Virus record (IMG/VR): IMGVR_UViG_3300020417_000958
Coordinates: 1-45,939 of that record
Strand: one strand, 5' to 3'
Origin: a virus
Length of the DNA stretch: 45,939 nucleotides
Both the position numbers and the translations under genes were made by a program. Within the stretch, counting starts at the first letter, position 1. Each line of letters starts with the position of its first letter. The notes below the pieces were generated by a model that worked only from the letters and a program-made list of their open reading frames with translations, did not search any database and had not been told where the DNA came from. Below, one piece after another: positions 3,101-44,206 of the stretch.

Positions 3101-6100
3101 ACATTTAAACAAAGACTCAGCCCAGAAAAAACTACATTAACTAGAATAAAATCTGGGGAACTTACACATATTTATCCTGACAAAGATAATACAAACTCAA
3201 TAAGAGATGTTATAAAAGATCCAAAATTTGATATAAATAAGTTAACATTTAAAATTAGTCTTAATCCTGCTAGAAAAGAGAGTAATTTCCAAATAGGTAA
3301 TGAGTTGAAAGCTAATCCTTATATATGGAAAAGAGGTGATAAGTACAATGTAGAAATGATATATGATAATAAAGCTATTGGATATGTTTCTAATGATCAG
3401 TATAGAATAGCGTTTAATAATAAACCACTTGATTTAAATAAACCATTATCATCTTTGCAATTTGTTTTTGATATTAATGACAAAGCTAAAATAGAAAATC
3501 AATACGGAAGTGATAAAGAGTTTGTACGTATTTTAGATAACTTGTATACTGCAGGAAAAAGCACAGTCACTTCACAAGAACTACAAAATGAAGGTGTCTA
3601 CTTTAGTGTTAATGATGATAGAATTGTATATAATGCTCCACCTAAAAGTTTAGATCAGTACTCATATAATACATATGATGGCTCAAGATTAATTATTACT
3701 GTAAGAAGAGAAAAAACAACTAAAAAATTAATTGTAGAACACGTTAGTGATTTACAAGCTGATAATATTGCTGAGTCACAAGTTTTATTTGAAAAAGCAT
3801 TACAAGATTTAGATGACAATACTAACTTTAATATACAAAAGCCTGGGTATTATGCTATAATTAATAAACCGAATGGAAAAGTAGGTGTATTATCTTTAGA
3901 TATAAAATCTGATAAGGCAACGTTAGATGAAGTATTTAGTAAAATAAAAGATAAGTCTAAAGATTTACTATCTAACAATGTAGAAAAAGGTAAAGCAAAA
4001 GATAAAGCAGCAGCCGAAGAGTTTAATAAAGATCTTAGTAATGATATTTTTGTATCATCTAAACCTGGTTCATACACTAAACTATTCTTAAATGCTTTAG
4101 GAGATTTAATACTTGAAGCTAGAGTTGATGGTAACAAACAATCTGTTAAGGTAAGCGCACAGGAATTAGATGAAGGAAAAGATATGAATGAGCTTATCAA
4201 GAGAATGAATGAAAAATCATCATTTAAATTTTCTACAAACAATTTTAAAAGCAATATATCTAAAGAAGCTGAGATAGATGAGATAGTTGCTAAGACGCAA
4301 TCTACAACTGACTTTGTTGCTCCTCCAGTAAATAGACAAATGAGATATTATGTTCAGTCAGATGTGCTAGAAACAGGAAGATCTGCAGAAGTAGCTCAAC
4401 CTAAAAGTACTGAAGTTGATTTAAAAGCAGTAGAAAAATTTGATGTAGAGTCTGCAGAATCACTTGCACCAGCAGATTTACGTGTTCAAGAATTAAAAGA
4501 GGCTAAACTTAATGTAGAAAAAATTAAGAAAGAAGTATGGGCTAGTGCTAAAGCAGAAGGTATAAGTAGAATGAAAGCTTTAAAAGATAGCAAAGAATAT
4601 CAAGAAGCTGTTAAGAAAGTAGAAGACATACAAAAAAGCTTTGACACTGATGCATATAAAATATTACAAGATTTACCTTCTGTTGAAACAGAAAAAGTTG
4701 ACTCATTTATTAGATGGGCGCAAGAAAACTTACCAGAGTTTATAGGCATAAAGAACATAAATGAACTAGGTGAAAGACTAAAAAATAATGGTACTACAGT
4801 AGGGGCATTTGTTATGGCTCTAAATGGGTTATCTAATGGTATGGATATCAAAGGTACTATATATGTAGGTTCTGCAGGATTTAGATATCATGAAGCTTTT
4901 CATGCAGTGTTTAGATTATTACTTACAAAAGCAGAACAAAAACAATATTATGATATTGCAAAGAAAGAACTAAGAGCTAAGCTTAGAAGAGAAGGTAAAG
5001 ACTTTGAGCAAGAATTACAAAAGTTTAAAAATACTTCTGCATTATATATGTCATTCTCTAGGGCTAGATTGCTTGAAGAATTTTATGAAGAGTATATGGC
5101 AGATGAATTTGAGAAATTTAAGAAAAATCCTAGAAGCTCAACTGCTGGTGGATTTATCAAATCTTTCTTTACAAGATTAATTAATTGGATTAAAACTGTC
5201 TTAGGTACATTTACTAAGAATGAGTTACAAACTTTATTTGAAAATATTGACGCAGGTAAATATAAAAATGCAACTAATTTAGCAAGCAACATGTTTACTG
5301 ATGAAATGGTTTTACATGATGCAAGCGTTGGTATATCTACAACAGCACATAAAATATTACCAACAAAAGAAAAAGTTGATGAGGCAGGACGTGTAACTTA
5401 TGAATACTTAGATGCTAATGATGCTAGCTTTGTTATTGATAGTATGATGTCTAGGACGTTAGCTCTTAATGATATGGATAGTGAGATGAGTTTATTAGAA
5501 ATAGAAGCTCAAGTATATGATGAGTATGTTGACTTATATGATCCTGACAATACTAAATATGATGAACTAGATGCAGTACAACGTCAAAAGGTAATAGACA
5601 TATCAAATGCCTTAGCCTTTGTAGAAAATGGTATACCATCTGTATCACTAGGTGTTAGAGAAAGGATTGATACATTAAATCTTAAAATAGATAAGCAAGC
5701 AGAAATAGATGAAGTGTTTGAATATGATTTAGGTCTTAGATCAACAGATGTATTTGACAAAGATCAATCTACAATAGGCGGAGCTACAGCATTACCTATG
5801 AAAGTAAGAGCATATATGGCAACTACTTTACTAGAAGAAACAGATGTGTTTGGTAATAAATTTTTAATTGATCCAATATATGATGAGCAAGGTAAAATTA
5901 TAAATGAAGGTGTACGTCTTATTGTACCAGTAGATGTTGACACAGTATATAATGGTGTTCTAAAAGCTGTTCAAAATAAAGAGACAGCTTATGATATACT
6001 AAGTAGCTTATATGCATATAGAAACAATGGACCACATACTAAAGCATTTGTAGATAGGTTATTTAATGATATGGGTATTGATGGAGAGGTATTAATAGAA

Positions 6101-9100
6101 TCAGGATCTTTACCACCATACGTTCACAATTCTGCATTTGCTATGCAAGTTATAAAGTCATTCCAAAATGCAAGAATTAATTATCTATTTGTACAAACTG
6201 TACAAGGTAGAACTATATTTTATTCTGCTGCAACTAGAGATGCTTCTAAATCTCAATTAGATCAATGGCAATTAGCTTATGATAACAGAAGATCTAAAAT
6301 GAAAGCTGACAAACAATTCAATTCTAAAGTCCAAGTAATATTAAAAAAGACTTTGGGTAGATTGCAGGCAACAAGAACAAAATTAGACAACGTAAGATTT
6401 GATAATGAAGCAAGACAGCTAGCTACTGAGATAAATGAAACTCTTGGTATACAACTATCTCCAGAATATTTAAAGGTAAGTATGCTAGCAGCTAAACCAG
6501 ATAATATTGTAAATAAAACAAAGATACAACAAAAGCTTTTAGATGATTTTGGTAAGATAAGAACGTTAACTGTTGAAGATGTTTCTGCTATAAAAGATAT
6601 TATTTTAGCAGATGGTAATTTATACTCTAAAGAGTCAGGTGCAGAAAGCAGACTTAGAGGTATAGCAATAGGCAATGCACAATTAGATGAAAATGTTGGT
6701 GCTAGTACACATACAAATGCAAATGGTGATATGGTAGTATCACACCAGATGCCTACGTTCCATACAAAGATGTTAAGAAAAATGAACGAGGTTGATTTTC
6801 TAGAAGAGTTAGAAGCAAGATTTCCTGATAACCCATTAATCAAAAGTGAAGCATTTAGACAAATGTCAATTGAAGGAAGACATGAGGTTTTAAGATTATC
6901 AGGATTTAGAAAAGGTGGTAAAGTTAGATTTGATGAAGAGCTTAATGAAGTTATTAGTGATGGTACTAAACAAGCTGAAGTTTCAAGAACATACGGAGAT
7001 CAAAGTCCAAAAGAATTTATAGAAAACTTAATATCATTATACACATATTATTATAACACAAACAAACAAGAAAACAAAACATATAGTGGTCAAGCAATAT
7101 CACCTGTACTTATAAGAGTTATGGAAGCAAGTGATACTGGAGATATGGCAGCATTGCCTATAAGTAAAACTGTAGAGCTTGAAAAAGGAAAACTTAAAAT
7201 TTCTCAAGATACATTAGATATATTTTATAAACAAATACAAAATGAGTATGACAGAATTGTAAGAGAATCAAATGAAGATACAAAGACGCAAGATATAATT
7301 GAAGATTATAATGATACCCCTAATGGAAGAGCATACAAACTTTTTAATACTAGAGCTATATTACCTGATGAAGTAGTACAATTATTAGAAGGTTTTGCAA
7401 AACAAGGAAAACCATTTGCAGAAGCAGCAGCATTAAGCACTGGCAAAACAAATATTTTTTCTGTGTTAAGAACTCAATTAGGAAATGAGTTTAATACTTT
7501 CTTTACTGAGCTTAAAGAAATGGCTCCTAATAAAGATATAACAAAAATAGTTCCTGATATAATTGTAAACGGATCACAAAATGAAATAGCAGATCAACAA
7601 TTAAATTTACTTTACAATAATGTAAATCATAATCTAGCTCAGATATACTTTAATGATAAAATAAATACTTTTGCTATTAACGAATTATTATTAGGTGATG
7701 AATCATTAACATTAAAAGATGCTGTAGACCAGGCTAAAAGAGCTAAAGGTCAAAATGGAGCAATACGTTCTGTTGAGATACCTTTCACAGATCCTATGTT
7801 AGGTATAACACATAAACTTAAAAACATAGATCTTTATGCATTTAAGGATCCTACATTTAAGAAAAGAGCCGGTGGTCCACAAGACCAAACAGATGCACAA
7901 GTTTATTATACAGAAAAAGGATTTAGATACTTCCAATTTGGTATAGGTAATTTAACTCAATCATATGCTGATGTTCTTGATCTTGTTAAGGATGGAAAAA
8001 AAGTTCCAGCAAAGTATGTTGACACGTATGCTGCAAAAGCTAATGCTATGAACTCTAAGAAGTTTGTGTATTTTGATGGTCAAACTTATATGAAGATGTC
8101 AATAGTTCCTCTTACAAAAGAGTTTACATCAATTAAAGATGAGAATGGTCAGTACACTATACCAAAAGCTAATAAGGTTGAGCTACATAATTTAAGAGTG
8201 AAAATGGAGGAATATGAACAAGCTAATGAAAGTGTAGTTGTTAGTGGTGGTACAACTGCATTAAAGATGCTTAAGAAAAATATTCATACCGCAGACAAAG
8301 CATTTGGTTTTAATTCCATTGACAGAGAAGATGTAAGTAAACTTGAAGCTAGGTTTATGGGACTACAACAAGTAACTCCTTCTAATAAATCTGAAGCAAC
8401 AGTTGGTACACAGATGAGAGTATTGATTACAGCTGAACAAGATTTAAAAGAAGATGTAATTGTTGATGGTAAAAAACAACCAATGAAAGATGTAGTTGAT
8501 CAGTACAATAAAAACATTATTGATAAACTGCAAGGTCTATTTAATAAATATGAAACTTTATTATATCCTAAAGGAATTGAAGGCCCGGCTGATTTATATA
8601 CTTATTTAAAAAGTGCACAAAGAAATTTAAAAGCAGGAAAATATTCTAGTAATATAATAGATATGTTTTCTGTAGATGATAACGGAGCAATGAAGTATGG
8701 CACCCATGCACCTTTTGTAATAAGAGATGCAGAAAGAGCATTATTATCAATGTTTAATAAAACAGTAGATGAAAAAGTTCCTGGTACATCAGCTACCCTT
8801 ATGTCTGACTATGGTATAAAAATATATAGAAAAGTATATTCTCTAGATAGTGATGGTGTTCCGTTAGAGCAAGAAGTAATAAGAGAAAATATTATACACA
8901 AGAATGGTACAGTTGTAGACCTAGATATATCTGAAGATCAAAATATAGATGTATTAAGAAAAGAAATTGAAGCTTCTAATGGTAAAGGAGTTATAGTGTT
9001 AGATAGATTAAGATCTGATATGGTAGACAAAGATGGATTAAAGTATTCTGAGTTTGTGATGCCAGCTATGTCAGCGAGTATAGCAAGACTTTTAGAAGAT

Positions 9101-12100
9101 ACTAATATGCCAATACCTGAATTTTTATCTAAAGTTTATGGTGTGCGTATACCATCACAAGATAAACACTCTGCATTAAACTTAAGACTTGTTGATTTTA
9201 TGCCAAGTTATATGGGATCTACAGGAGTTTTTGCAAGAGAAATACTAGAAAGATCAGGTGCGGATTTTGATATAGACAAGATATATCTACACATGAAAGA
9301 GTTATATGAGAAAAATGGTAAATTTTATGAGTATGGTAAACAAGGCTTTGATGATTATATACAATATGTAGGTGACGCTATCAATTCAGGTAAACCTAAT
9401 GCTTTCAAAGATGCTTTTGAAAAATTCATGTTGGGTAGCAAAAAGAGTGATAAGATCAAACAAAAAGATGCAATTACAGGTGCACTAACTCAATTAAATT
9501 TACCTACTACAAAAGAAGAATTTGACAAGTATGAAGGGCCTAGTTTATACCCTGGTGCAAATAACAACAAAGACTTAGAGTTGAAGTATGCTATGTTAGG
9601 TAATAAAAAAATAACAGAATCATTAACTCCAGGAGGAACTCCTATTATTGCAGAAGAAGCTGGCTTAGATAGATTAAAAAGTGTTAGAGCATACATGGAA
9701 GAGGTTGTTCCTGAGTGGGCACAAAAAACTGCAGATACTACTTTAGATGTAAACTCTTTATTAGGTAAGTTTTATTCTTATAAAAATAATAAAGAAGGAG
9801 CTGGTAATATTGGTTTAGCTGTAAAACCAAATTTAGCATATTCATTGCTAAGAGAGTATGATATAAAATTAAATGGGCTTGCAAAGTTTGTAATAAATAA
9901 AAAGACTGCAACAAAATTTGAAACTATGGTTGATAATAAGCAGGGTGGAAAAGATAGAATAGCTTCAGTTTTTGATGAGCTTGTATCTGCAAATGTTGAT
10001 AATGCAAAAGAAAGACTTGTTTCTAAATTAGGTTTGAATAGAAATAATCTACCCATTGCTGGAGCAGCTTTAGCTGTAGGAATACCTATTGATGATGTTG
10101 TTTTATTTATAAACTCACCTATATTTGAAGAGGATACTTATCAAGATAAAAGAGATCCTTATCTATTTGAGCAAAGTGGTATACCTAAAATTACAACAAC
10201 AGAAATATTAAAGACATATAGTCCTGAATTTAATACTCTTCCTAAAAACCAACAAGCTAAGATAAAAAGAAATATGATTGATATTAGACAAAGGCTAGGA
10301 GCTATATCTGCACAAGCAAGAAACTTAGGAGTTCTTATGAATTATATGAGAGGATTTGGTAAAGACTTTGGTGCATCTTTATATCAGGACAGACAAATAG
10401 CACAGTTATTTGGTGGTACTAAAAAAGCGGCTAAAGCATCATTTATAATTAATGCTGCAGAGGATAGTTTTATTGTGTCTAACTTAAAGCTTGCTGAAAG
10501 GTTTTCTGAAATAGCAGAAAAAATATTACCAAGATTTAATTCAGAATTTAAAAAACATTTTCTACAACGTATTTTACCTCAGATGTCTCCATTTGTAGTA
10601 GAGAATAAAGGTGAGTATGTAGATCAAGTAGCTTTAGATTATTTAGCATATAGATTAATATCATTATATAAAGATAATCTTAATAATAGCCCAAGTAAAT
10701 TAGCAGGTACTTTAAGTAATTCTATGATTTATGGTAATAGTAATACAGAAAGTGTTATTGATGTAGTAGAAAGGTTGAGAAAAACTGATCCAGAAAAAAG
10801 TAATTATTTTTTAAATAACTTTGTACAAACAGTAAGTTATGATAATGAACAAAACAATGATGGTCTAAATAAAGCTGTGACAAATACATTTGCTAGATTA
10901 ACTGATAATCAAAAGATAAAAGTTCAAAATGGGTTTGCTATGTTATATGGTAATTCTTCAACAAGAACAGACGCAGTTAAGTTATTACATTATATAATAG
11001 TAAAAGACGGATTACAATTTAACACAGCTTCTTTATTGCAAGCACTAAGTCCTTATATTATAGAAACATTCTTAGATAAAACAACAAATATTTTTACTAA
11101 TCCTGTTTCAGCATTTGATGCTGTACAATTTGCTAGAAATTATTTTAAAAGTGCTAGTGCACAAAAATATTTACAGCAAGAGTTTGATAGTTTAGCTAAA
11201 CCTTTTGGTAAGAAATCAATAAGAGATGGAGTAGAGTACAGACTAGTGCCTAGAGAAAAAGTTTTAGTAGAAACAAGTGAAGCTATGATACCTGATGAGA
11301 TAAGATTATACATAAGAATTAATAACCAATTATTTGAGTACGACAATATGGATTATGATGGTGTTGCAGATGAAGTACCATATAAATTAATACCTATAGA
11401 AGGAAGTATAGCACAGAATCCAATAGGGTTTATGTTTAATGATGCTAACTTTAGTAGACCAGCATATAAAGATATTGCTAAATATAACAAAACAACAGAT
11501 CAAATTAGTTTAGAAGAATTCCAAGAAATGCAAGGGATTACTAAAGCATTTGAAACAGGATCAAATGTTACAGCTAATGAAAACGGATATACAATAGAAG
11601 ATGCAATAGGTATATCAGAAAAAGCTATTGAAGGATATACTATTCCAACAGAACAAACAGAAGTTGTCAAAGAAACTCCAAAAAAAGGAGATATTGTTAC
11701 TCTAGAATTTTATTTTGAAAAAGAAAATAAAATAACACCTGTTAAAGTAACAATAGAAAATATTACAGAGATTGAACAAGGAGGGGCTATAATTACGGAC
11801 AATAAAGGTAATGTTATAAAAGAAGAACCAGGGACTATAGAATATGAATTAACTTTAGTATCTAATAAAGGTAGAAAATATGAAGTTACTGTTGGTAGAG
11901 ATGGTAATATAACTCAATTTTTAGGGAAAAATAATAAATTGAAAATAGGTACAGATAATTATATTCCAGAATTTGATTTAAAATCTCAACCAACCCAACA
12001 AAATTTTGAACAAGCAGATTTAGAAGAGCAAAAGCCTATGGCTAAGTCTAGAGTTAAAGAGTTATTAAAAGCAAGTCAAGAGGTTAAAGACAATAAAAAA

Positions 12101-12259
12101 CTTGAAAACTTCTGGGATAATGAAATAAATAATTATTTAGAAAGAAAAGAAAAAACAGGATATAATTCTTATCTTGATTTAGAAAATGCATACAAAGAAG
12201 TTGCAGATGATATATCAGTGGAAGAATTTATTGAGAACAGTGTAAGATGTAAATTTTAA
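110..12259 (+). CDS. Giant virion RNA polymerase-type protein with zincin-like motif (4,049 aa)
   Basis: Probably packaged in the virion and injected to transcribe early genes, as shown for the crAss-like phage phi14:2 polymerase. The key signature is DFDID at residues 3052-3056, preceded by R3013-x-P and followed by K-I-Y-L-H. This parallels the beta-prime layout NRxPT...ADFDGDQMAVH, whose aspartates bind catalytic magnesium. The polymerase core therefore lies around residues 2900-3200. A second motif, HEAFH at 1594-1598 with an acidic helix EEFYEEYMAD near 1656-1665, looks like an HExxH zinc metallopeptidase. The N-terminus has a hydrophobic segment near residues 60-75 and an Ala/Gly-rich stretch near 150-230. 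Residues near 3850-3960 look beta-rich. The protein is about twice the length of the phi14:2 enzyme. The ATG at 110 is probably an internal Met, see the broken 5' extension. The stop at 12259 lies 2 nt before the next giant gene. The polymerase assignment is strong and the protease role is inferred. Confidence 0.82.
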   Translation: MRAVNLALSESKMESALVVNEQIGRNLGALQGATGEYTDEDFRKAQANAADAGFSTLMWNWPLIYVTNNMILRTAFRGFNTTRLGKILNDTGGLHKNIRQTRPLKDAATGGLAKNIFEDVSSKGWKNTLGIPSAKKIGTWTAGGTTLAGAHGAARYFAYNIAEGGQEVYQEAVAVGAKDYYSQILEDPQAGDWNTLWASMHEGASSQMTGQGFETFMSGFLMGGLVRGPQKILFETLPGLIQQKARPGEYADYQKTRDDYVDKLVKVYNDKWNEFVDIGDFQFNPHKKAQAVMRQAADGMNAAELKQDPLGFYDEKDFIKFSQAYRLFETGGSPFFASAIGDIGNNLTDEELIQAFPMHEKDIKSGKYRDRLKETVQEINDMQDRFTLHNDKFKNKYDPNKFKPGTVAHTRESARWAGYEQARYLYLFAEESFKRALERTNKIYEGLATEPVFQDNSKIAANDIQVLAEGRSIQEEMILLAQEVEMLKETKGDNRKEIASKKKKMKALANYFDILTAKENQTKDGKRFSRTPANIKKLRKVFLEYVDVLAEEKGTYTNVNNIDASLRNLIDLSVLKDRSRAYERAVRFLADPSELDRLSDNMQNQFLFIFNNQIKYYKNSVKNKIAKQERAVLLRAFANLGVLPIPEEAEAFILSGDVSVLKTFQSKEGVITEESNPELYQAIQEKIENYRKLYNKNVEKPAEKKEDTQEQQPDPDFESARLDQQEDFDKASRDGQPLPAINTDIISEEEAIVLNRLYDKYAQGSTDEVLSEDEWLELTKTKRQYNAIKKLFDRYKADIKNIDDINKIPTFNQWFTKNRGENSIKSILALGGASSLQPSDFLPKEQKIEPKQLPSNQKRIKAGFNKDINLVRIKTTDQEGNEVAIYELQDNQGAILSDGILQRAGVENTSYVSIREGENAFNKVIKTIDSDVAFNFDGIELKYGDRIVDDKGQQYMVLGTPKNIQDGNSLLVKVLGTNKEQTLPEVGFSTNYKLDTRTFKQRLSPEKTTLTRIKSGELTHIYPDKDNTNSIRDVIKDPKFDINKLTFKISLNPARKESNFQIGNELKANPYIWKRGDKYNVEMIYDNKAIGYVSNDQYRIAFNNKPLDLNKPLSSLQFVFDINDKAKIENQYGSDKEFVRILDNLYTAGKSTVTSQELQNEGVYFSVNDDRIVYNAPPKSLDQYSYNTYDGSRLIITVRREKTTKKLIVEHVSDLQADNIAESQVLFEKALQDLDDNTNFNIQKPGYYAIINKPNGKVGVLSLDIKSDKATLDEVFSKIKDKSKDLLSNNVEKGKAKDKAAAEEFNKDLSNDIFVSSKPGSYTKLFLNALGDLILEARVDGNKQSVKVSAQELDEGKDMNELIKRMNEKSSFKFSTNNFKSNISKEAEIDEIVAKTQSTTDFVAPPVNRQMRYYVQSDVLETGRSAEVAQPKSTEVDLKAVEKFDVESAESLAPADLRVQELKEAKLNVEKIKKEVWASAKAEGISRMKALKDSKEYQEAVKKVEDIQKSFDTDAYKILQDLPSVETEKVDSFIRWAQENLPEFIGIKNINELGERLKNNGTTVGAFVMALNGLSNGMDIKGTIYVGSAGFRYHEAFHAVFRLLLTKAEQKQYYDIAKKELRAKLRREGKDFEQELQKFKNTSALYMSFSRARLLEEFYEEYMADEFEKFKKNPRSSTAGGFIKSFFTRLINWIKTVLGTFTKNELQTLFENIDAGKYKNATNLASNMFTDEMVLHDASVGISTTAHKILPTKEKVDEAGRVTYEYLDANDASFVIDSMMSRTLALNDMDSEMSLLEIEAQVYDEYVDLYDPDNTKYDELDAVQRQKVIDISNALAFVENGIPSVSLGVRERIDTLNLKIDKQAEIDEVFEYDLGLRSTDVFDKDQSTIGGATALPMKVRAYMATTLLEETDVFGNKFLIDPIYDEQGKIINEGVRLIVPVDVDTVYNGVLKAVQNKETAYDILSSLYAYRNNGPHTKAFVDRLFNDMGIDGEVLIESGSLPPYVHNSAFAMQVIKSFQNARINYLFVQTVQGRTIFYSAATRDASKSQLDQWQLAYDNRRSKMKADKQFNSKVQVILKKTLGRLQATRTKLDNVRFDNEARQLATEINETLGIQLSPEYLKVSMLAAKPDNIVNKTKIQQKLLDDFGKIRTLTVEDVSAIKDIILADGNLYSKESGAESRLRGIAIGNAQLDENVGASTHTNANGDMVVSHQMPTFHTKMLRKMNEVDFLEELEARFPDNPLIKSEAFRQMSIEGRHEVLRLSGFRKGGKVRFDEELNEVISDGTKQAEVSRTYGDQSPKEFIENLISLYTYYYNTNKQENKTYSGQAISPVLIRVMEASDTGDMAALPISKTVELEKGKLKISQDTLDIFYKQIQNEYDRIVRESNEDTKTQDIIEDYNDTPNGRAYKLFNTRAILPDEVVQLLEGFAKQGKPFAEAAALSTGKTNIFSVLRTQLGNEFNTFFTELKEMAPNKDITKIVPDIIVNGSQNEIADQQLNLLYNNVNHNLAQIYFNDKINTFAINELLLGDESLTLKDAVDQAKRAKGQNGAIRSVEIPFTDPMLGITHKLKNIDLYAFKDPTFKKRAGGPQDQTDAQVYYTEKGFRYFQFGIGNLTQSYADVLDLVKDGKKVPAKYVDTYAAKANAMNSKKFVYFDGQTYMKMSIVPLTKEFTSIKDENGQYTIPKANKVELHNLRVKMEEYEQANESVVVSGGTTALKMLKKNIHTADKAFGFNSIDREDVSKLEARFMGLQQVTPSNKSEATVGTQMRVLITAEQDLKEDVIVDGKKQPMKDVVDQYNKNIIDKLQGLFNKYETLLYPKGIEGPADLYTYLKSAQRNLKAGKYSSNIIDMFSVDDNGAMKYGTHAPFVIRDAERALLSMFNKTVDEKVPGTSATLMSDYGIKIYRKVYSLDSDGVPLEQEVIRENIIHKNGTVVDLDISEDQNIDVLRKEIEASNGKGVIVLDRLRSDMVDKDGLKYSEFVMPAMSASIARLLEDTNMPIPEFLSKVYGVRIPSQDKHSALNLRLVDFMPSYMGSTGVFAREILERSGADFDIDKIYLHMKELYEKNGKFYEYGKQGFDDYIQYVGDAINSGKPNAFKDAFEKFMLGSKKSDKIKQKDAITGALTQLNLPTTKEEFDKYEGPSLYPGANNNKDLELKYAMLGNKKITESLTPGGTPIIAEEAGLDRLKSVRAYMEEVVPEWAQKTADTTLDVNSLLGKFYSYKNNKEGAGNIGLAVKPNLAYSLLREYDIKLNGLAKFVINKKTATKFETMVDNKQGGKDRIASVFDELVSANVDNAKERLVSKLGLNRNNLPIAGAALAVGIPIDDVVLFINSPIFEEDTYQDKRDPYLFEQSGIPKITTTEILKTYSPEFNTLPKNQQAKIKRNMIDIRQRLGAISAQARNLGVLMNYMRGFGKDFGASLYQDRQIAQLFGGTKKAAKASFIINAAEDSFIVSNLKLAERFSEIAEKILPRFNSEFKKHFLQRILPQMSPFVVENKGEYVDQVALDYLAYRLISLYKDNLNNSPSKLAGTLSNSMIYGNSNTESVIDVVERLRKTDPEKSNYFLNNFVQTVSYDNEQNNDGLNKAVTNTFARLTDNQKIKVQNGFAMLYGNSSTRTDAVKLLHYIIVKDGLQFNTASLLQALSPYIIETFLDKTTNIFTNPVSAFDAVQFARNYFKSASAQKYLQQEFDSLAKPFGKKSIRDGVEYRLVPREKVLVETSEAMIPDEIRLYIRINNQLFEYDNMDYDGVADEVPYKLIPIEGSIAQNPIGFMFNDANFSRPAYKDIAKYNKTTDQISLEEFQEMQGITKAFETGSNVTANENGYTIEDAIGISEKAIEGYTIPTEQTEVVKETPKKGDIVTLEFYFEKENKITPVKVTIENITEIEQGGAIITDNKGNVIKEEPGTIEYELTLVSNKGRKYEVTVGRDGNITQFLGKNNKLKIGTDNYIPEFDLKSQPTQQNFEQADLEEQKPMAKSRVKELLKASQEVKDNKKLENFWDNEINNYLERKEKTGYNSYLDLENAYKEVADDISVEEFIENSVRCKF

Positions 12260-12261
12260 TT

Positions 12262-15200
12262 ATGGCATGTTTTAATAAAAATACAGCAGAATATAAAGCT
12301 TTACAAGAAGAGTTTAAAAAAGACAGTATTGTTGATGCTAAGATAATGGCATGGCAAAGAGTTAATAACAGTGATGTTATACCATCTGTAGATCAAGTAC
12401 AGCAAGGACAGAGAGATAAACAAGTAATGTACTCTACAACAAAAAGAAATTTTTCAGCAGCTCTTATTGGTAATCTAAACAGATTAAAATTAGTTACTAA
12501 AAAATATAAAGGTTCACATTATGTAAATACAACAAATGGTGAACAATTTTTTGCTAGTCAAGAAATACTAAAAGATAATATAAGAAAAATATATAAGTAT
12601 CTTGCTGTTAATAACATACCATCAGATGCTATTAATATTAATAGAACAACTAAGTCAGCAATAATTACTGTTAATGAAGATATGTTTTCAGTGGCTGATG
12701 TAATACCAGCTAAAAGACCAGAGAATACAACAAGAACTTTAAGTGTTGTTGAACATCTAGAAAGACTGTTTCCACAAGTTACAGTTAATATTGCAACTGT
12801 ATCTGAAGCAAAAGAATATTATGATAGTTTACCTAAAGATGAAAAAGCAAAAATAAAATTTGCTGACATAAAGTCTTATTACCAAAATGGTAAAGCTGTA
12901 CTAATACAAGGTAGGGTAACAGATGAAACTGCAATAGAAGAACTTTTACATCCTTTTGTAGATGCAGCTAAAACAGAAAATCCAGAGTTGTTTGATAATT
13001 TATTAAAAGAATCTAAGCTTAATTTTCCTGTATTAAAGCAAGAGATAGATGATGCTTATAGTAATAAGAATGGATTTAAACAAGTACACAGAGATCTAGA
13101 ACTTGTTACACAAGCTATGACAAGACATTTTCAAAAAGAATATGAAGACAAACCTACTAAATCATTTCTTGATAGAATAGTAGATTTTCTAAGATGGTTT
13201 GGTAATCTTATTAATGATTTACATAAGTATGTAACAGAAAAGCAAAAGCCTGTGTTTCAGCTTAGTCAAGCAAATCCAAACTTAAAATTATCTGAGATAG
13301 CACAAATACTTAATACAACTGATATAAGTTTTAAGTTTAACTATAAAGTAGATAATGTAGTTAGATATTCTTTATCTAATAAAAAACAAAAGATTGTAAA
13401 TAGGGTAAAGGATGTAATGAGTGCAAACCCATTACAGAAAAAAATTATTGACAAGTTGTTTCATATAGCTGATAAACAAGCAGATGAAATAGACTCACTG
13501 TCAGCAAACCCAGAGGATATTACTTATGGTAATAGCATAGTAATACTAAATAAAGAGCAAGGCAAGCATGAATATGTAGACATATCAACAGGAGAGATAT
13601 ACACATCTGCAACAACAGCAATTAATGGTGTAATGCAAAATAGAGAAGAAGTAGCAGAAAGCTTAGCTGTTGGTAATGACTTTGACTCAGTAGTAGAAGC
13701 AGTTATAACAGGAGTACCTGTAGATGAATTATTTGCAGAATTACAAGCTGTACCAGAAAGCAAGCTTAAAAATGATAAAGCTAGATTAGAAAGTATATAT
13801 GATGATATACATCAAAAAACTATGCTTGCATATATGGATGGTACTGTGTTTATCCCACAAGTAGTGGTATATGATAGAGCTACTAAGATAGCTGGTACAG
13901 CAGATATAGTAGGTATTACAACAAAAGGAGAGATAAGAATTATAGATCTCAAGACAAGTAGAACTGCTTATATTAGTAAAAACAAAGAACAATATAAAAG
14001 AGAGTGGGATCTAGCAGATGATAGTAAGCTAAAACAAGCTGGTGTTAATAGGATGTCTACATTAGCTAAACATGGATTACAAGTAAACATGTACAGAAGA
14101 ATGTTTGAGAATATGGGATACAAAGTAGAGCAAGGTCCTTATTCTGCACAAACTTTCCATATTCATGTAGACATGGAAGGTAAAGGTAAAAATACAAAAT
14201 GGAAAGGGACGTATAGATTTGATGGTTTAATGCAGCATCCTCCTTTACCAAACAATTCAAATTTAGATAAACTTATACCAAAAAACCCTGATATAATAGC
14301 AAAAGAAAAAATTGAATTTGAAACTAAAAATTCTGATACATATAATCCTTTTAATACACCTGATGAATCTTTACCAGATGATGAGTTTGCAAGTCCAATT
14401 CAAGAAGACACAAGATATAAAGGTATTAAATCTGCTGTAGAAAATTATCAAAAACATTTAGTAGACAGGGCCAAAGCATTAGAACAATACAAAAAACAAT
14501 TGTTTGTAGATAAAACTAATCCAGAAGCATTAGATTATATTAACAACACTTTAGCTACAATACTAGTATCACTTGACCCATTAAGAACAGACCAGGCTGT
14601 AGTACAAAGCAAAGTATTTGTTGATTTAATTAGGATGGCTATAAAAGAAATGGATACTTTTATTGCTTATGTTAATGATCCTAAGAATTTACAAGATAAA
14701 AACTTTATAACATACATAAACAATTTTGATAATTTTGCAAAGTCTTATGAAGCACTAAATGATTTAGGTGCTGATTTATTAAATAAAAATGAATTAAGAT
14801 TAATAAATCAACTACAAACAAAATTAAAAAAAGTAAGAGGTACAAATTATTTACCAGGATTAATAGATACAGCATTAGAAGATTGGGCGGTACAAACTAT
14901 AAAACAAGAAAGCAACCTAGAATATACAGAGGCTGAGCTAAGACAACTAATTAAAAAGGCTGAGGATACAAATTTCTTAGATCTTAATACAAGAGATATG
15001 GCTACTTCACCTGATACAATACTTGCAGTTATAGATAAGCTTTATAAAAGATCAAAAATAAGAGCTCAAATAGTACAAAGAGAAGAAGTTCAAACTATAA
15101 GAACTCTTGGTAATAGACTTACTAGACTTGCAGGGACAAATGATCCTACAATAGTCTTCAAAAACCTGCATGAAGATCCTATTAATAAACCTGGAAAACT

Positions 15201-17973
15201 TGTAGAAAAATTTGGTAAACAATATAATGACAAAGCAGAAGAGTTACGTAATGAATTATTTCATGCAAACGGAGATTGGAAAAGATATATTCAAACAGAA
15301 GATATTAATACACCATTAACACAAGAAGAAATACAGTATAATATAGAACTTTGGAATGCAAAACAAGCTAATGCTGCATTTATGAGAGCTGAAACAAAAG
15401 ATGAAAATAATAATGCTGTAGACGGAGAGTTTCATAGATATACAGATGAATTTAAAAAAATAAGAGATAAGTATCAAATATTTATACCTGTAGGAAATCA
15501 TGGGTTCTGGAGAATGAGAAGTGGTATAAGCCAAGAACAAACAGAAGAGTATTATTTAAAATATTATGATACTAGAGAAGTTGAAACAATGATAATGCTT
15601 GAAGGAAAACCTACAGGTAAAACAAGATTTCAAACACTTAGATTTCCTAAGAAAAAGTTTGTTGAGAAAAGAGAGGTCTCATCCAATGGTGTTAACATGC
15701 TTAGTGATAAATATGTAAAACTAATGAATCCAACAACTGAATTAGGCAGAGCAGAAAAAGATTTTTATGAAGCATACATGGAACTCAGTGATAAGATGAT
15801 GAAAAAATTACCATTAGATGTAAGAGATAGGATGCTTGGGTTTGCACCACTTGTAAAAGGTAAGATGGTAAAGGATGCAAAAAGCAAAGGCATGTTTGGT
15901 CTTGTAAGAGATATAACTAAATACTTTGGAGATGAAGTTAAGGATGTTTTAACAGAAACCACATCATTCAGACGTGTACAAACAGATGAATATGGTAACA
16001 TGATTGACTCAATACCAATAATGTTTGTAGGTAGACCAAGAACACAAAAAGCTGTTCAAGAAATAAATGATAAACTAGAAGAGCTTGAAGCACGAAGAGT
16101 AGCACGTAAAGTAACAGGAGAAGTATATCAAAAACAAAAATCTTTTCTTGAATCAGAAAAAAGAGCAATATTAGGCAAACCTGAAGCATCAGAAATAAGC
16201 ATGGATCTTGCTGACAGTATTATTAAATTCAGCAGTATGGCTACGATTTATGAACAGATGACTGATATTGAAGATACGCTACTTGGTTTAAAGAAAATTG
16301 TTGACAGAAGACAATATGTAGATACTAAAAAAGGTATTGTTAGATATGCAAGAAATTTAAAAGATACAATTGTAGGTAAGAAAGGTAGTAAATCACAAGA
16401 AGAAGCTAATACAAAAAAGAGATTATCAGCTTGGTTTAGTATGGTGTTTTATAATAGTGATGAAATGACTAGAAGTATAGCTGACAAACTTACAAGTTCA
16501 TTAATAGGTATTTCTTCTTTAACATATGTAGCATTTAACGCTATTGGTAACTTAAACAACTTAGCAATAGCATCTGTAAATAATGCAATAGAAGGTATGG
16601 GACAAAGATTTTTTAGTCTTGACTCTTATAAAAGAGCAAACAAAGCATTTTATGCAGATGGTGGAGGTGTAACAGTAGCTTTATTTAGTAGGTTAGCATA
16701 TAAAACATCTAGTAAGAATGGAAGATATGATCCTGATTTAGCAATGAATAAATGGGAAGCTATGGCTCAGCATATGTTTATGATGGATGCTTATGCTGAC
16801 ATACGTGAAGCAACGCAAGGTCAAGGTGCTATGACAGAAGGTTTCTTAACTATACCTGGATTTTATGAAAAATTTAAAAGATTTGGTTATTCATTACAGG
16901 ATGCAGCAGAATATAAAGTACAAACTACTGTTGGTATGGCAATACTAATGGATACGTTGATGGAAAATAGCAAAACAGGAGAGCAGTTAAGTTTTTATGA
17001 TGCTCATGATTATGATGCTAAAACTCAGACAGTAAAATTAAAAGAAGGCTTTGATACTATTATAACTAAAACTGTTAATAAAAAAGAGATAAAGAAATTA
17101 TATGATATAAATGAAAGAGCTGATTTAAGAAATAATATTAGAGAAGCAAACAAGCAGATACACGGTAACTATGCTAGAGAAGACAGGGTTTTACTGCAAA
17201 GACATAATATTGGTCAGTTATTATTCCAGTTTAAAAAATGGTTAGCTCCTGCTATTAGAGCAAGATTCCAAGGTGAATACTATGATGAAAACTTAGGTTG
17301 GATGGAAGGAAGATACGTATCTACTTACAAGTTTTTAGGATATCTAGCAGGGCAATTAAAAAACCTAAACTTCAAAGCTATGAACTTTAAATCCTACAGA
17401 GATGAAGTGTTTGGTAAAAAGTCTGGCTCAACAGAGCAAGAGAATGAAAGAATACAAAACAAAATTTTTGGTATTAAAAGAACAGCTGCTGATCTAGCAA
17501 TGATTATAGCAACTTGGGGTATATACCAATTACTACTTACTGGATTTGAAGATGAAGATGATGACATGGATCCAACTTTAAGGAAACTAAGAAACTTAGC
17601 TATATACCAAGCAAATAGAACATACAAAGAACTTTCTATGTTTATGCCTATCCTTCCGGGTGCATATACACAAATGTCACAGTTTACTAGTGATCCTATA
17701 GCATCTACAAGAAACCTAGGGCAAATAGGAGAAATGTTAAGTACAGGTTTATATACGGGATATAGATTTGGATATGCTGCAATTGATGGTTTAGATGGTG
17801 TAACAGAAAGAGAATACAGAGAACTGATGAAAGACTCTGATTTATTCTATCAATATAAGCCTAGAAAAGGTAAACTTAAGTTCTGGAAAGAAGCAGCAGA
17901 TATTATACCAGGTATATATACAATACAAAAGTTTAATGGATTTTTAAGAAGACAAGACTTTTATATAGACTAG
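12262..17973 (+). CDS. Second giant virion-type protein with PD-(D/E)XK nuclease domain (1,903 aa)
   Basis: This gene starts 2 nt after the RNA polymerase gene and is surely co-transcribed with it. In crAss-like phages several giant genes lie together and their products enter the virion. A nuclease domain of the Cas4/RecB type is visible around residues 510-660: G545-T-A-D548, then D562-L-K564-T, then Q607-x-x-x-Y611. Nearer the N-terminus EELLHPF (226-232) sits in a context resembling a zincin helix but lacks the first His of HExxH, so it may be a decayed peptidase. Long Lys/Glu-rich helical stretches fill the middle. Hydrophobic segments lie near 1415-1435 and 1745-1760, the latter followed by an acidic run. 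The role of a nuclease here is unknown; host DNA attack at entry or genome processing are guesses. Confidence 0.72.
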   Translation: MACFNKNTAEYKALQEEFKKDSIVDAKIMAWQRVNNSDVIPSVDQVQQGQRDKQVMYSTTKRNFSAALIGNLNRLKLVTKKYKGSHYVNTTNGEQFFASQEILKDNIRKIYKYLAVNNIPSDAININRTTKSAIITVNEDMFSVADVIPAKRPENTTRTLSVVEHLERLFPQVTVNIATVSEAKEYYDSLPKDEKAKIKFADIKSYYQNGKAVLIQGRVTDETAIEELLHPFVDAAKTENPELFDNLLKESKLNFPVLKQEIDDAYSNKNGFKQVHRDLELVTQAMTRHFQKEYEDKPTKSFLDRIVDFLRWFGNLINDLHKYVTEKQKPVFQLSQANPNLKLSEIAQILNTTDISFKFNYKVDNVVRYSLSNKKQKIVNRVKDVMSANPLQKKIIDKLFHIADKQADEIDSLSANPEDITYGNSIVILNKEQGKHEYVDISTGEIYTSATTAINGVMQNREEVAESLAVGNDFDSVVEAVITGVPVDELFAELQAVPESKLKNDKARLESIYDDIHQKTMLAYMDGTVFIPQVVVYDRATKIAGTADIVGITTKGEIRIIDLKTSRTAYISKNKEQYKREWDLADDSKLKQAGVNRMSTLAKHGLQVNMYRRMFENMGYKVEQGPYSAQTFHIHVDMEGKGKNTKWKGTYRFDGLMQHPPLPNNSNLDKLIPKNPDIIAKEKIEFETKNSDTYNPFNTPDESLPDDEFASPIQEDTRYKGIKSAVENYQKHLVDRAKALEQYKKQLFVDKTNPEALDYINNTLATILVSLDPLRTDQAVVQSKVFVDLIRMAIKEMDTFIAYVNDPKNLQDKNFITYINNFDNFAKSYEALNDLGADLLNKNELRLINQLQTKLKKVRGTNYLPGLIDTALEDWAVQTIKQESNLEYTEAELRQLIKKAEDTNFLDLNTRDMATSPDTILAVIDKLYKRSKIRAQIVQREEVQTIRTLGNRLTRLAGTNDPTIVFKNLHEDPINKPGKLVEKFGKQYNDKAEELRNELFHANGDWKRYIQTEDINTPLTQEEIQYNIELWNAKQANAAFMRAETKDENNNAVDGEFHRYTDEFKKIRDKYQIFIPVGNHGFWRMRSGISQEQTEEYYLKYYDTREVETMIMLEGKPTGKTRFQTLRFPKKKFVEKREVSSNGVNMLSDKYVKLMNPTTELGRAEKDFYEAYMELSDKMMKKLPLDVRDRMLGFAPLVKGKMVKDAKSKGMFGLVRDITKYFGDEVKDVLTETTSFRRVQTDEYGNMIDSIPIMFVGRPRTQKAVQEINDKLEELEARRVARKVTGEVYQKQKSFLESEKRAILGKPEASEISMDLADSIIKFSSMATIYEQMTDIEDTLLGLKKIVDRRQYVDTKKGIVRYARNLKDTIVGKKGSKSQEEANTKKRLSAWFSMVFYNSDEMTRSIADKLTSSLIGISSLTYVAFNAIGNLNNLAIASVNNAIEGMGQRFFSLDSYKRANKAFYADGGGVTVALFSRLAYKTSSKNGRYDPDLAMNKWEAMAQHMFMMDAYADIREATQGQGAMTEGFLTIPGFYEKFKRFGYSLQDAAEYKVQTTVGMAILMDTLMENSKTGEQLSFYDAHDYDAKTQTVKLKEGFDTIITKTVNKKEIKKLYDINERADLRNNIREANKQIHGNYAREDRVLLQRHNIGQLLFQFKKWLAPAIRARFQGEYYDENLGWMEGRYVSTYKFLGYLAGQLKNLNFKAMNFKSYRDEVFGKKSGSTEQENERIQNKIFGIKRTAADLAMIIATWGIYQLLLTGFEDEDDDMDPTLRKLRNLAIYQANRTYKELSMFMPILPGAYTQMSQFTSDPIASTRNLGQIGEMLSTGLYTGYRFGYAAIDGLDGVTEREYRELMKDSDLFYQYKPRKGKLKFWKEAADIIPGIYTIQKFNGFLRRQDFYID

Positions 17974-42446: not shown

Positions 42447-43424
42447 TTAAAGTTTTATAGTGTTAATTAGAAGAGTTTTAAGGCTATTATTTACTTTTGA
42501 CGCAGTGTGTTGCTTTACAGCATCTGATATATCTTTACAGTTATTCAGTGAACAGCCATCTAGATTATACATCTCTTTATATTTATGTATAGCCTTTTTG
42601 CCTGCTTCATCATTGTCAAATAAAGTTATAATTTTCTTATACTTCTTCTTCAAATTTTGCACAATATACGGTTTTATCATTGTATTTTCACTATCTGGAG
42701 CAATAACTTCTATTTTTTTGTAGTTAAAACTCCTGAGACACATAGCATCTTTTAGTGATGAACATATGATAAGATAAGGCTTATCAAACTTAAGTTGATC
42801 ATAGCCTTGTAAATAAGGTTTCACTTTGTGGAACTTATGTTTCTTTGAAAATGGTTGATATATCTTATAGATATTACCATCTTTATCAAAGTAACCATAC
42901 ATGTTCTTACCTTCTATAGATAGAGATTTAACTTCTCCATCATCTTCTTTAACCATGTTGTAGTACTCAATAGGTTTTACATTATATTCATTTAATAATG
43001 TACTACCAATATTATATGCTAGCCAGTACTCAGCATCATGTTCAAACCAATCTCTTGTTTTTACAAAATCAATTTCCCATTTTGCTGCAATCTTAAAGTT
43101 TGTTTTCTTTATTCCTGCTTTAGCATATTTATTATAGTCTTCAACTATTTTATTAACTGCCTGTGAATAATCTAAATTGAATAATTCTTTTACCAAATCT
43201 ATTTTACTACCGTATTTACCTGTAGAAAAGTCTTTATACTTATATTGCATAATACTTTTATCTACATATATACACATAGATGGTGTTCTTTCACCAGGAT
43301 TAAATATAGATTTGATCTTTATATCTTGTCCAGATAATTGTTCAGGTAAGTTTAAATAGTGATGAAATACCCAATAACTAGGTACACTTGATTCACTTGA
43401 GACAAGGTTTTTTGTATTTAACAT
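42447..43424 (-). CDS. DnaG-like primase with Toprim domain
   Basis: Makes RNA primers for replication. From ATG 43424 the 325-residue protein has N-P-G-E-R-T-P-S (42-49) and K-D-F-S-T-G-K-Y-G, which match the N-terminal CHC2-like primase domain but without the zinc cysteines. The Toprim motifs follow: I-C-S-S-L-K-D (220-226), where Ser replaces the usual first Glu, F-D270-N-D272-E-A-G-K-K, and K-D-I-S-D (297-301). The in-frame TTG at 43460 is rejected since it lies inside the folded element at 43425-43530. The order next to SSB, Sak4-like ATPase and helicase fits a replication module. Confidence 0.75.
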   Translation of the reverse strand: MLNTKNLVSSESSVPSYWVFHHYLNLPEQLSGQDIKIKSIFNPGERTPSMCIYVDKSIMQYKYKDFSTGKYGSKIDLVKELFNLDYSQAVNKIVEDYNKYAKAGIKKTNFKIAAKWEIDFVKTRDWFEHDAEYWLAYNIGSTLLNEYNVKPIEYYNMVKEDDGEVKSLSIEGKNMYGYFDKDGNIYKIYQPFSKKHKFHKVKPYLQGYDQLKFDKPYLIICSSLKDAMCLRSFNYKKIEVIAPDSENTMIKPYIVQNLKKKYKKIITLFDNDEAGKKAIHKYKEMYNLDGCSLNNCKDISDAVKQHTASKVNNSLKTLLINTIKL

Positions 43425-43530
43425 AATTAATAATTTAAGGGCAAGCTCTGCATCACGCAACTGTGTTCTGGCTTATTAAGCAGATACTGCCATATCTGGA
43501 CTTACATGCGTCTACACCCTAAAATTAATT
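43425..43530 (-). ncRNA. Folded ~105-nt element between SSB and primase genes (candidate cis RNA)
   Basis: A noncoding spacer, about 49 % GC in its core against about 30 % around it. On the minus strand its ends pair (AATTAATTTTAGGG, 43530-43517, with CCC...TTATTAATT, 43441-43425). Inside, ACGCA (43459-43455 complement) pairs with its mate at 43511-43507, and CAGATA/TATCTG (43498-43481) forms a 6-bp hairpin. The right arm ends at the primase ATG, so folding could hide the start. I do not recognise a known riboswitch or tRNA. Confidence 0.45.
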
Positions 43531-44206
43531 ATAAATCAAAGTCATCACCAGCATTAACTGTTGTAGCTGGTTCAAAACTTTTTGTTTGTGTACTACCTTC
43601 TTTCTTCTGTATTCTTCTAAGATGATCACTTTCATTATATTTTAGTAATCTTGCACCATCTTTTTCTAGTGCTTCTAATGGTACACCATCTTTAGATAAA
43701 CGTGGTAAGAATAAATCTAGGTTAACATAACCATCTTTATTTTCCCATTCTCTACCACCAATACATGCGTTGAAGTACTCACTGTTAGAGAATAACTTAT
43801 TACACTCTACCATAAAGTCTTCAATAGTATTAGCCTCAATCTCATCAAGAGCATCTCTCTTGTTGACAACTTCACTTAAGAATATCATAGCTTTTAGAAC
43901 TTCATTATCTCTACTGATTTCTACACCACTAGGTAATGTAGTATCCTTATATGGATATGGAGAAAATCTAATTCTACCAACTTGACCTTCATATCTTTCT
44001 CCGTCAGGCTTATTTACATCCTTTAAGAAACCTTGAAAATCACCTTCTTCTGGTTTACCTTCTACATGCAATACAATATTATATGCATCAGAATCATATG
44101 GAGTAACATCAAAGGTAATTGAGTTAATCTTAATTACATTGTTACCTGCGCCCATTACAGGCTTAACTCTGCCACTACCGGCAGACATGTCTTTTGTACT
44201 TAACAT
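43529..44206 (-). CDS. Single-stranded DNA-binding-like protein
   Basis: A 225-residue protein. The central part has beta-rich segments (I-K-I-N-S-I-T-F-D-V, A-Y-N-I-V-L-H-V-E-G, G-R-I-R-F-S-P-Y-P) as in phage SSBs, and the C-terminus is an acidic tail N-A-G-D-D-F-D-L, typical of SSB tips that recruit partners. It lies between the Sak4-like ATPase and primase genes, the usual place for SSB. The fold cannot be proven by eye. It could protect ssDNA and load the annealing protein. Confidence 0.6.
   Translation of the reverse strand: MLSTKDMSAGSGRVKPVMGAGNNVIKINSITFDVTPYDSDAYNIVLHVEGKPEEGDFQGFLKDVNKPDGERYEGQVGRIRFSPYPYKDTTLPSGVEISRDNEVLKAMIFLSEVVNKRDALDEIEANTIEDFMVECNKLFSNSEYFNACIGGREWENKDGYVNLDLFLPRLSKDGVPLEALEKDGARLLKYNESDHLRRIQKKEGSTQTKSFEPATTVNAGDDFDL

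Follow-up and report, generated by a model that had tools for sequence, protein, structure and literature searches.

Pseudoknotted RNAs have been described at several kinds of site in phage genomes. The STAXI motif consists of phage-type pseudoknots, two or three in tandem, frequently with UUCG loops and often located near Ssbp genes (PMC2864571). The translational operator of T4 gene 32 is a pseudoknot in the gp32 mRNA, and is also present in phage RB69 (PMC535899). The HDV-like and theta ribozymes are small pseudoknotted RNAs found in the intergenic regions of gut phages (PMC10879173).

The window, that is, the whole stretch of DNA analysed here, is a 45,939-base virus record of a crAss-like phage, with a primase that matches the Crassvirales primases. 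The region of interest lies between two genes:

43529..44206, minus strand: upstream gene, SSB-like protein of 225 aa, C-terminus DDFDL
43425-43528: SSB-primase spacer, 104 nt, noncoding
42447..43424, minus strand: downstream gene, DNA primase of 325 aa, ATG at 43424, match to phrog_12622 DNA primase with E 1e-23

The upstream protein had no Pfam or PHROG matches. The best PDB folds for its AlphaFold model (pLDDT 70) were SSBs and the SSB-like protein PrgE, at a weak E value of 3e-3, and the best viral folds included DUF669 and SSB proteins, so the predicted protein is termed SSB-like, its identity coming from fold comparison only. An initial annotation, made from this one sequence, described the spacer between the two genes as noncoding and GC-rich, and it was right on both counts, the core having 48.7% GC against about 25-35% in the AT-rich surroundings. 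On the plus strand, the window carries two giant neighbouring open reading frames, 110-12259 (4049 aa) and 12262-17973 (1903 aa), a pair located on the strand opposite the replication genes as in other crAss-like phages.

The sense strand of the spacer is the minus strand, as for SSB and primase. Its predicted single-sequence fold was close to that of dinucleotide shuffles (z -0.23, with 76 of 200 shuffles as good), and the fold of the antisense plus strand was also not above chance (z -1.19). A search of the window against Rfam 15 at the gathering threshold gave no matches, and a relaxed search of the region gave at best chance-level E values of 0.5 or worse. The Rfam model of STAXI, which we take to be RF01728, had no match in the window at the gathering threshold and none at E ≤ 1 in seven member loci. 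Since folding of the single sequence was at chance and there was no Rfam match, the spacer could have been dismissed on such evidence alone. Neither a terminator (a GC hairpin followed by a U-tract) nor a minus-strand promoter-like match was found in the window spacer, and the SSB and primase genes are therefore probably co-transcribed. Read-through or frameshifting from the SSB stop into primase was considered and rejected, since a stop ends that frame immediately and primase starts from an ATG of its own.

Searching with the SSB and primase protein sequences yielded 127 loci, from which the orthologous spacers were extracted. Most had a simple hairpin, and a minority shared CCAGAYRTGG-N-AGCTTAAT with the window, within a larger conserved element that pattern scans of IMG/VR also located in contigs where the neighbouring genes are different. 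An alignment of 18 distinct members was made by hand and, independently, with MAFFT (alignment A2), with results that agree. In A2, 89.2% of the cells pair, compared with 70.7% after shuffling, and the covariation was 0.517, compared with 0.180 in the shuffled alignments, none of which reached the observed value in 500 trials; versions with the structure slid along the alignment gave at most 0.138. Three of the four helices, P1, P3 and P4, were recovered by RNAalifold unaided. The parts of the element in the window, from its 5' to its 3' end, are:

43434..43524, minus strand: structured RNA element, 91 nt, identified with covariance models R1 and R2
43517..43524, minus strand: P1 5' arm UUUUAGGG of the closing stem, pairing with 43434-43441; the inner pairs covary
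43507..43509, minus strand: P2 5' strand GCA of the pseudoknot helix, pairing with 43450-43452
43502..43506, minus strand: conserved UGUAA directly 3' of the P2 5' strand (alignments A2 and A6)
43490..43499, minus strand: P4 hairpin CCA-GAUA-UGG, family form CCN-GAYR-NGG
43476..43481, minus strand: conserved single-stranded GCUUAA before P3, invariant in the 18 sequences of A2
43471..43475, minus strand: P3 5' strand UAAGC, pairing with 43442-43446
43450..43452, minus strand: P2 3' strand UGC, between the 5' and 3' strands of P3, so that P2 and P3 cross
43442..43446, minus strand: P3 3' strand GCUUG, abutting the P1 3' arm with no linker
43434..43441, minus strand: P1 3' arm CCCUUAAA, ending 9 nt before the primase ATG

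The helix order is P1-P2-P4-P4'-P3-P2'-P3'-P1', and the crossing of P2 and P3 makes the fold a pseudoknot. Across the family, P1 (GG(G)/(C)CC plus AT pairs) is followed by the seven nucleotides UGYUGAA, the 3-bp P2 5' strand and UGUAA; then come an insert that varies from 0 to about 110 nt, the P4 hairpin, about 6 nt, and GCUUAA or, in part of the later members, ACUUAA. The element ends with the P3 5' strand (5 bp, up to 7), about 20 nt containing AACA and GCG, the P2 3' strand, 3 nt, the P3 3' strand and the P1 3' arm. The P2 pairs form in 98.7-100% of the cells, with double changes at all three pairs and seven helix sequences in the family, and the P3 pairs form in 95-100%, with double changes at four of five. 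The closing pair of P4 is A-U, C-G or U-A across relatives and its two C-G pairs are never broken; the P4 variants of later members, CCCGACGGGG and CCTGACGAGG, reflect this covarying closing pair. A pairing of UGUAA with UUGCG, attractive by eye, was set aside as it had no covariation support. The conserved unpaired UGUAA, GCUUAA, AACA and GCG suggest that the RNA adopts a compact tertiary fold.

The closing stem of the initial annotation was thus retained, although its right arm, thought to extend to the primase ATG, nearly does so, ending 9 nt short. The inner helices, taken here as the 6-bp CAGATA/TATCTG and the 5-bp ACGCA/TGCGT, were not conserved, with several of their pairs forming in only 1-6 of the 18 relatives; the fold drawn previously differs from the conserved one, which is pseudoknotted and was revealed only by comparison with relatives.

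Additional members were obtained by scanning with a pattern for the 5' half only, followed by the covariance model, which added L193, L243, L246, L232, L242, L231, L234/L238 and L248 with E values from 5e-23 to 2e-9; their 3' halves fit the model. The covariation in the resulting alignment of 30 members, A3, was 0.580, compared with 0.174 after shuffling (0 of 500), and in the 26 members kept for model R2 it was 0.586, compared with 0.176. Three degenerate variants, L106 (E 7e-8), L082 (0.001) and L086 (0.055), were excluded from the final model; the L086 and L082 spacers are a shortened relative of the pseudoknot. The element in the window was scored at E 5e-18 by R1 and at 78.7 bits, E 2e-16, by R2 in an unfiltered search of the entire window in which the runner-up had 16.7 bits, the window being one of R2's own training sequences.

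A held-out scan using the middle pattern only, and then R2, identified 19 further members, 18 of them distinct. R2 includes P1, P3 and P4, and P2 is in neither covariance model. The held-out alignment was fitted to these three helices, so the result for P2 is its unbiased part. P2 formed in all 19 held-out matches, as GCG/CGC, TGG/CCA, GGG/CCC, TCG/CGA or GAC/GTC; earlier members also have GCA/TGC, as in the window, and GAG/CTC. In the held-out alignment, A7, 97.6% of the cells pair, with a covariation of 0.703, compared with 0.230 after shuffling (0 of 500), and at most 0.128 for slid versions. The suggestion in the initial annotation that the spacer harbours a new structured RNA is strongly supported, and the search for covariation in relatives, proposed there as one of the checks, found it to be very strong, including in the held-out set. 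When the four helices are read in the sense direction there are 30 G.U cells and 5 A.C cells, 23 of the former coming from a single conserved pair that ends P3, an excess that favours a sense-strand RNA over DNA or an antisense RNA. On these comparisons, the RNA encoded by the minus strand from 43524 to 43434 almost certainly belongs to a new family of structured RNAs in tailed phages.

The element is intergenic and on the strand of its flanking genes in all loci examined, and there is one copy in each of the 20 whole records that bear it. Seven crAss-like contigs of 107-117 kb, which have plain hairpins, lack it. Among crAss-like phages the element occupies the whole SSB-primase spacer, beginning in the window 4 nt from the SSB stop and ending 9 nt from the primase ATG. 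In an unrelated lineage, the element follows a different SSB family: the upstream proteins of L242 and L296 match PHROG 378, those of L138, L231, L248 and L288 are homologous to them, and in L296 the element is 11 nt after the SSB. No similarity was detectable between the crAss-like SSB and the PHROG-378 SSB family. Many other members follow non-SSB genes, some with 100 nt or more on both sides; the preceding gene is a DNA polymerase in L150, a 397-aa protein ending in SPLPF in L164, and small ORFs in L152, L243 and L246. The 177-aa protein upstream of the element in L147 was considered as an SSB, as it ends in EDAPF, but was rejected since it had no family or profile match. In L164, L180 and L184, the element is downstream of the 397-aa gene and the SSB-primase spacers of the same contigs (L033-L035) have a plain terminator-type hairpin, which indicates either a relocation of the RNA within the genome or a separate acquisition.

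A strict pattern was found in only 2 of 84,980 bacterial and archaeal genomes and neither match fits the covariance model, so that within what was searched the element looks phage-specific. BLASTN of the element against phage records returned chance pieces only. The L141 and L146 members end in a T run. Extra long-stem structured regions adjoin the element in several loci (3' of it in L136 and L232, and also in L138, L147 and, about 100 nt 5', L141), examples being GATGAACCATA...TATGGTTCATTC, AAAGAGAGTA...TACTCTCTTT and AAGAAAGGT...ACCTTTCTT, the last of which closes a complex fold of 85 nt; they suggest that structured RNAs form arrays between the gene modules.

When the spacers at the SSB-primase junction were classified by simple patterns that we defined, 49 had a hairpin with a U-tract (terminator-type), 18 a second hairpin designated type B, 17 the pseudoknot, and a few others something else. 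On the tree of SSB and primase, the spacer type changes at least 12 times, and the pseudoknot requires five changes, three of them forced by well supported branches. The nearest relatives of the pseudoknot-bearing phages (82-88% SSB identity) carry the type-B hairpin. The latter has the form TAATGATA-GGGGTGG..(often a GTGGTTGAC loop)..CCACCC-TTGATTTA without a proper U-tract, occurs in L003, L004, L036, L047, L052, L065, L069, L083, L092, L109 and L117, and may be another RNA element. The spacers of L075 and L072 are complex (GGGTGGGGACTGCATAAAGG...CCAGGTTAATACACTTGTTAGTCCCC), and no relation was found for them.

In gut Crassvirales, tRNA-like T-arms were found in the SSB-primase spacer of 11 of the 12 genomes examined (within L275-L286: cr115_1, cr114_1, cr52_1, cr272_1, cr6_1, cr10_1, cr50_1, cr53_1, cr130_1, cr7_1 and, by eye only, cr60_1), and cr118_1 has a plain hairpin. 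These spacers are 125-631 nt long and the structures are mostly 15-27 nt before the primase ATG. The degenerate forms, which are missed by ARAGORN, have an acceptor and a T arm, a UUCGANU loop and the tail ACA; the minimal form, in cr6_1, is 42 nt, TAGCCTG-N11-TGTAG-TTCGATT-CTACA-CAGGCTA. The cr130_1 spacer contains two true tRNAs, tRNA-Gln and tRNA-Leu. The variety of occupants shows that one kind of structured RNA takes the place of another at this junction; the exchange with terminators shows a shared position, not a shared function.

RNAs that combine a rigid pseudoknot with invariant unpaired nucleotides usually turn out to be ribozymes, sensors of a ligand or binding sites for a protein. 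The reading that we tentatively prefer, and consider a serious possibility, is that of an intercistronic or 3'-UTR element whose role would be to uncouple or protect the message of SSB. The element would act in cis, as a junction or 3'-UTR device of a polycistronic replication mRNA. The SSB-primase transcript would be made in one piece, and the knot immediately after the SSB stop would block decay by 3' exonucleases, direct RNA processing, or both, so that the SSB mRNA could outlive the primase message and be uncoupled from it. The knot would substitute for the terminator-like hairpins or tRNA-like structures that relatives have at the same spot, the feature common to all being RNA structure at the 3' end of a replication gene with high expression. 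The many members that follow genes other than SSB, some of them with 100 nt or more on both sides, fit a free-standing RNA as well. The conserved unpaired core exceeds the needs of simple exonuclease protection, so that a ribozyme, a protein-binding site or a trans-acting RNA must also be considered.

Among these, autoregulation by SSB, whose binding the initial annotation had suggested, would have excess free protein bind the pseudoknot and repress its own operon, in the way that T4 gp32 acts at a pseudoknot in its own mRNA, but from the 3' side, on the downstream gene, or both. The element adjoins SSB in crAss-like phages and in the unrelated PHROG 378 lineage, and gp32 of T4 and RB69 provides a precedent (PMC535899). 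However, the SSBs of the two lineages have no detectable similarity while the RNA core is nearly the same, the L150, L164, L234 and L243 members are away from SSB, and most crAss relatives with an orthologous SSB do not have the RNA; this explanation is rather unlikely, though it deserves to be kept in mind. It is likewise an unlikely idea, and the most novel one, that the element represents a new class of small self-cleaving ribozyme, or else a processing signal that mimics tRNA, and serves to punctuate the replication operons of phages. It would then set free the SSB message at its 3' end, and the tRNA-like elements and terminators found at this junction in crAss-like phages would be interchangeable with it.

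A free small RNA or RNA decoy, with a host RNase, toxin or defence as a conceivable target, and merely parked between genes of the early region, would explain the single copy per genome, the differing neighbours, the gains and losses at fixed sites and the occurrence in unrelated phages; nevertheless, the crAss-like spacer is filled exactly by the element and a minus-strand promoter-like match is absent from the window spacer, and we regard it as improbable. For a self-cleaving ribozyme in the strict sense, of a new class and with its cut between the genes of the polycistronic mRNA, one can cite the core of about 85 nt, the pseudoknot, the invariant unpaired nucleotides and the phage intergenic site, all reminiscent of small ribozymes, and the tRNA-like elements, typical processing sites, that gut crAss phages have at the same junction. 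Against it, no known topology fits, there is no Rfam ribozyme match, the helix order of HDV-like ribozymes differs, and ten comparable structured motifs tested by others showed no cleavage (PMC10085705), so that the prospect is decidedly poor.

The initial annotation proposed a candidate cis-regulatory RNA at the primase start and named a riboswitch or thermosensor among the options, and the 9-nt distance from P1 to the primase ATG in the window is what such an element gating primase translation might have. A cis-regulator of primase is not supported in that form, and a riboswitch or thermosensor is very improbable, since the downstream gene differs by lineage (primase, nuclease-like, small ORFs), a change that no riboswitch logic fits, the upstream gene is an SSB in two unrelated lineages, orthologous primases are mostly without the element, and a thermosensor does not need seven covarying versions of P2. 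A DNA structure, either a replication origin or an SSB nucleation site acting as single-stranded DNA, an idea raised by the STAXI authors for pseudoknots near Ssbp genes (PMC2864571) and in keeping with a place in the replication module beside SSB, is scarcely credible, since close relatives replicate without the element and the conserved U.G pair (23 of 26) becomes C.A on the other strand, so that the pairing is strand-specific and RNA-like.

The element represents an RNA family that had not been catalogued and whose covariation is near-conclusive. The family occurs in crAss-like phages as well as in several unrelated phages that are uncultivated, and is linked to genes for DNA replication. 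At the SSB-primase junction of Crassvirales, RNA devices of quite different kinds swap with each other. The window has the family features, namely the crossing of P2 and P3, the CCN-GAYR-NGG hairpin P4 and GCUUAA before P3. The novelty is that of the RNA family, which has no Rfam 15 match and lacks defining features of STAXI and the T4 gene 32 operator, the closest motifs described. Nothing resembling the element was found among the open-access PMC papers that the literature search covered.

The intrinsic terminators of related crAss-like phages have the same SSB-primase position, but neither a U-tract nor a simple hairpin is present in the window spacer. The tRNA-like structures of gut Crassvirales also occupy the same junction. 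As in tRNA, the 5-bp P3 abuts the closing stem without a linker and the loop of P3 pairs back to the 5' part; unlike tRNA, the element has no T-loop and no CCA, and its P3 loop is long. A tRNA or tmRNA identity was considered, as GCAGCUUAAU resembles tmRNA, and rejected, ARAGORN finding none and Rfam no tRNA match in the window. In HDV-like ribozymes the helix order is P1-P2-P3-P3'-P1'-(P4)-P2', a nested double pseudoknot. The element is, like the HDV-like and theta ribozymes, small, pseudoknotted and in phage intergenic regions, but it has a hairpin in the first loop, P2' and P3' are adjacent, there is no Rfam match, and no tRNA adjoins it in the window. Like the T4 gene 32 operator, it is a pseudoknot carried by the mRNA of a phage SSB gene, whereas the operator is 5' of gene 32 and the element is 3' of SSB, has a different conserved core and is found beside other genes as well. 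Finally, unlike STAXI, the element is single-copy in each record and has a closing stem and the CCN-GAYR-NGG hairpin; what the two have in common is that both are pseudoknot RNAs near DNA-handling genes, here those for SSB, primase and DNA polymerase.
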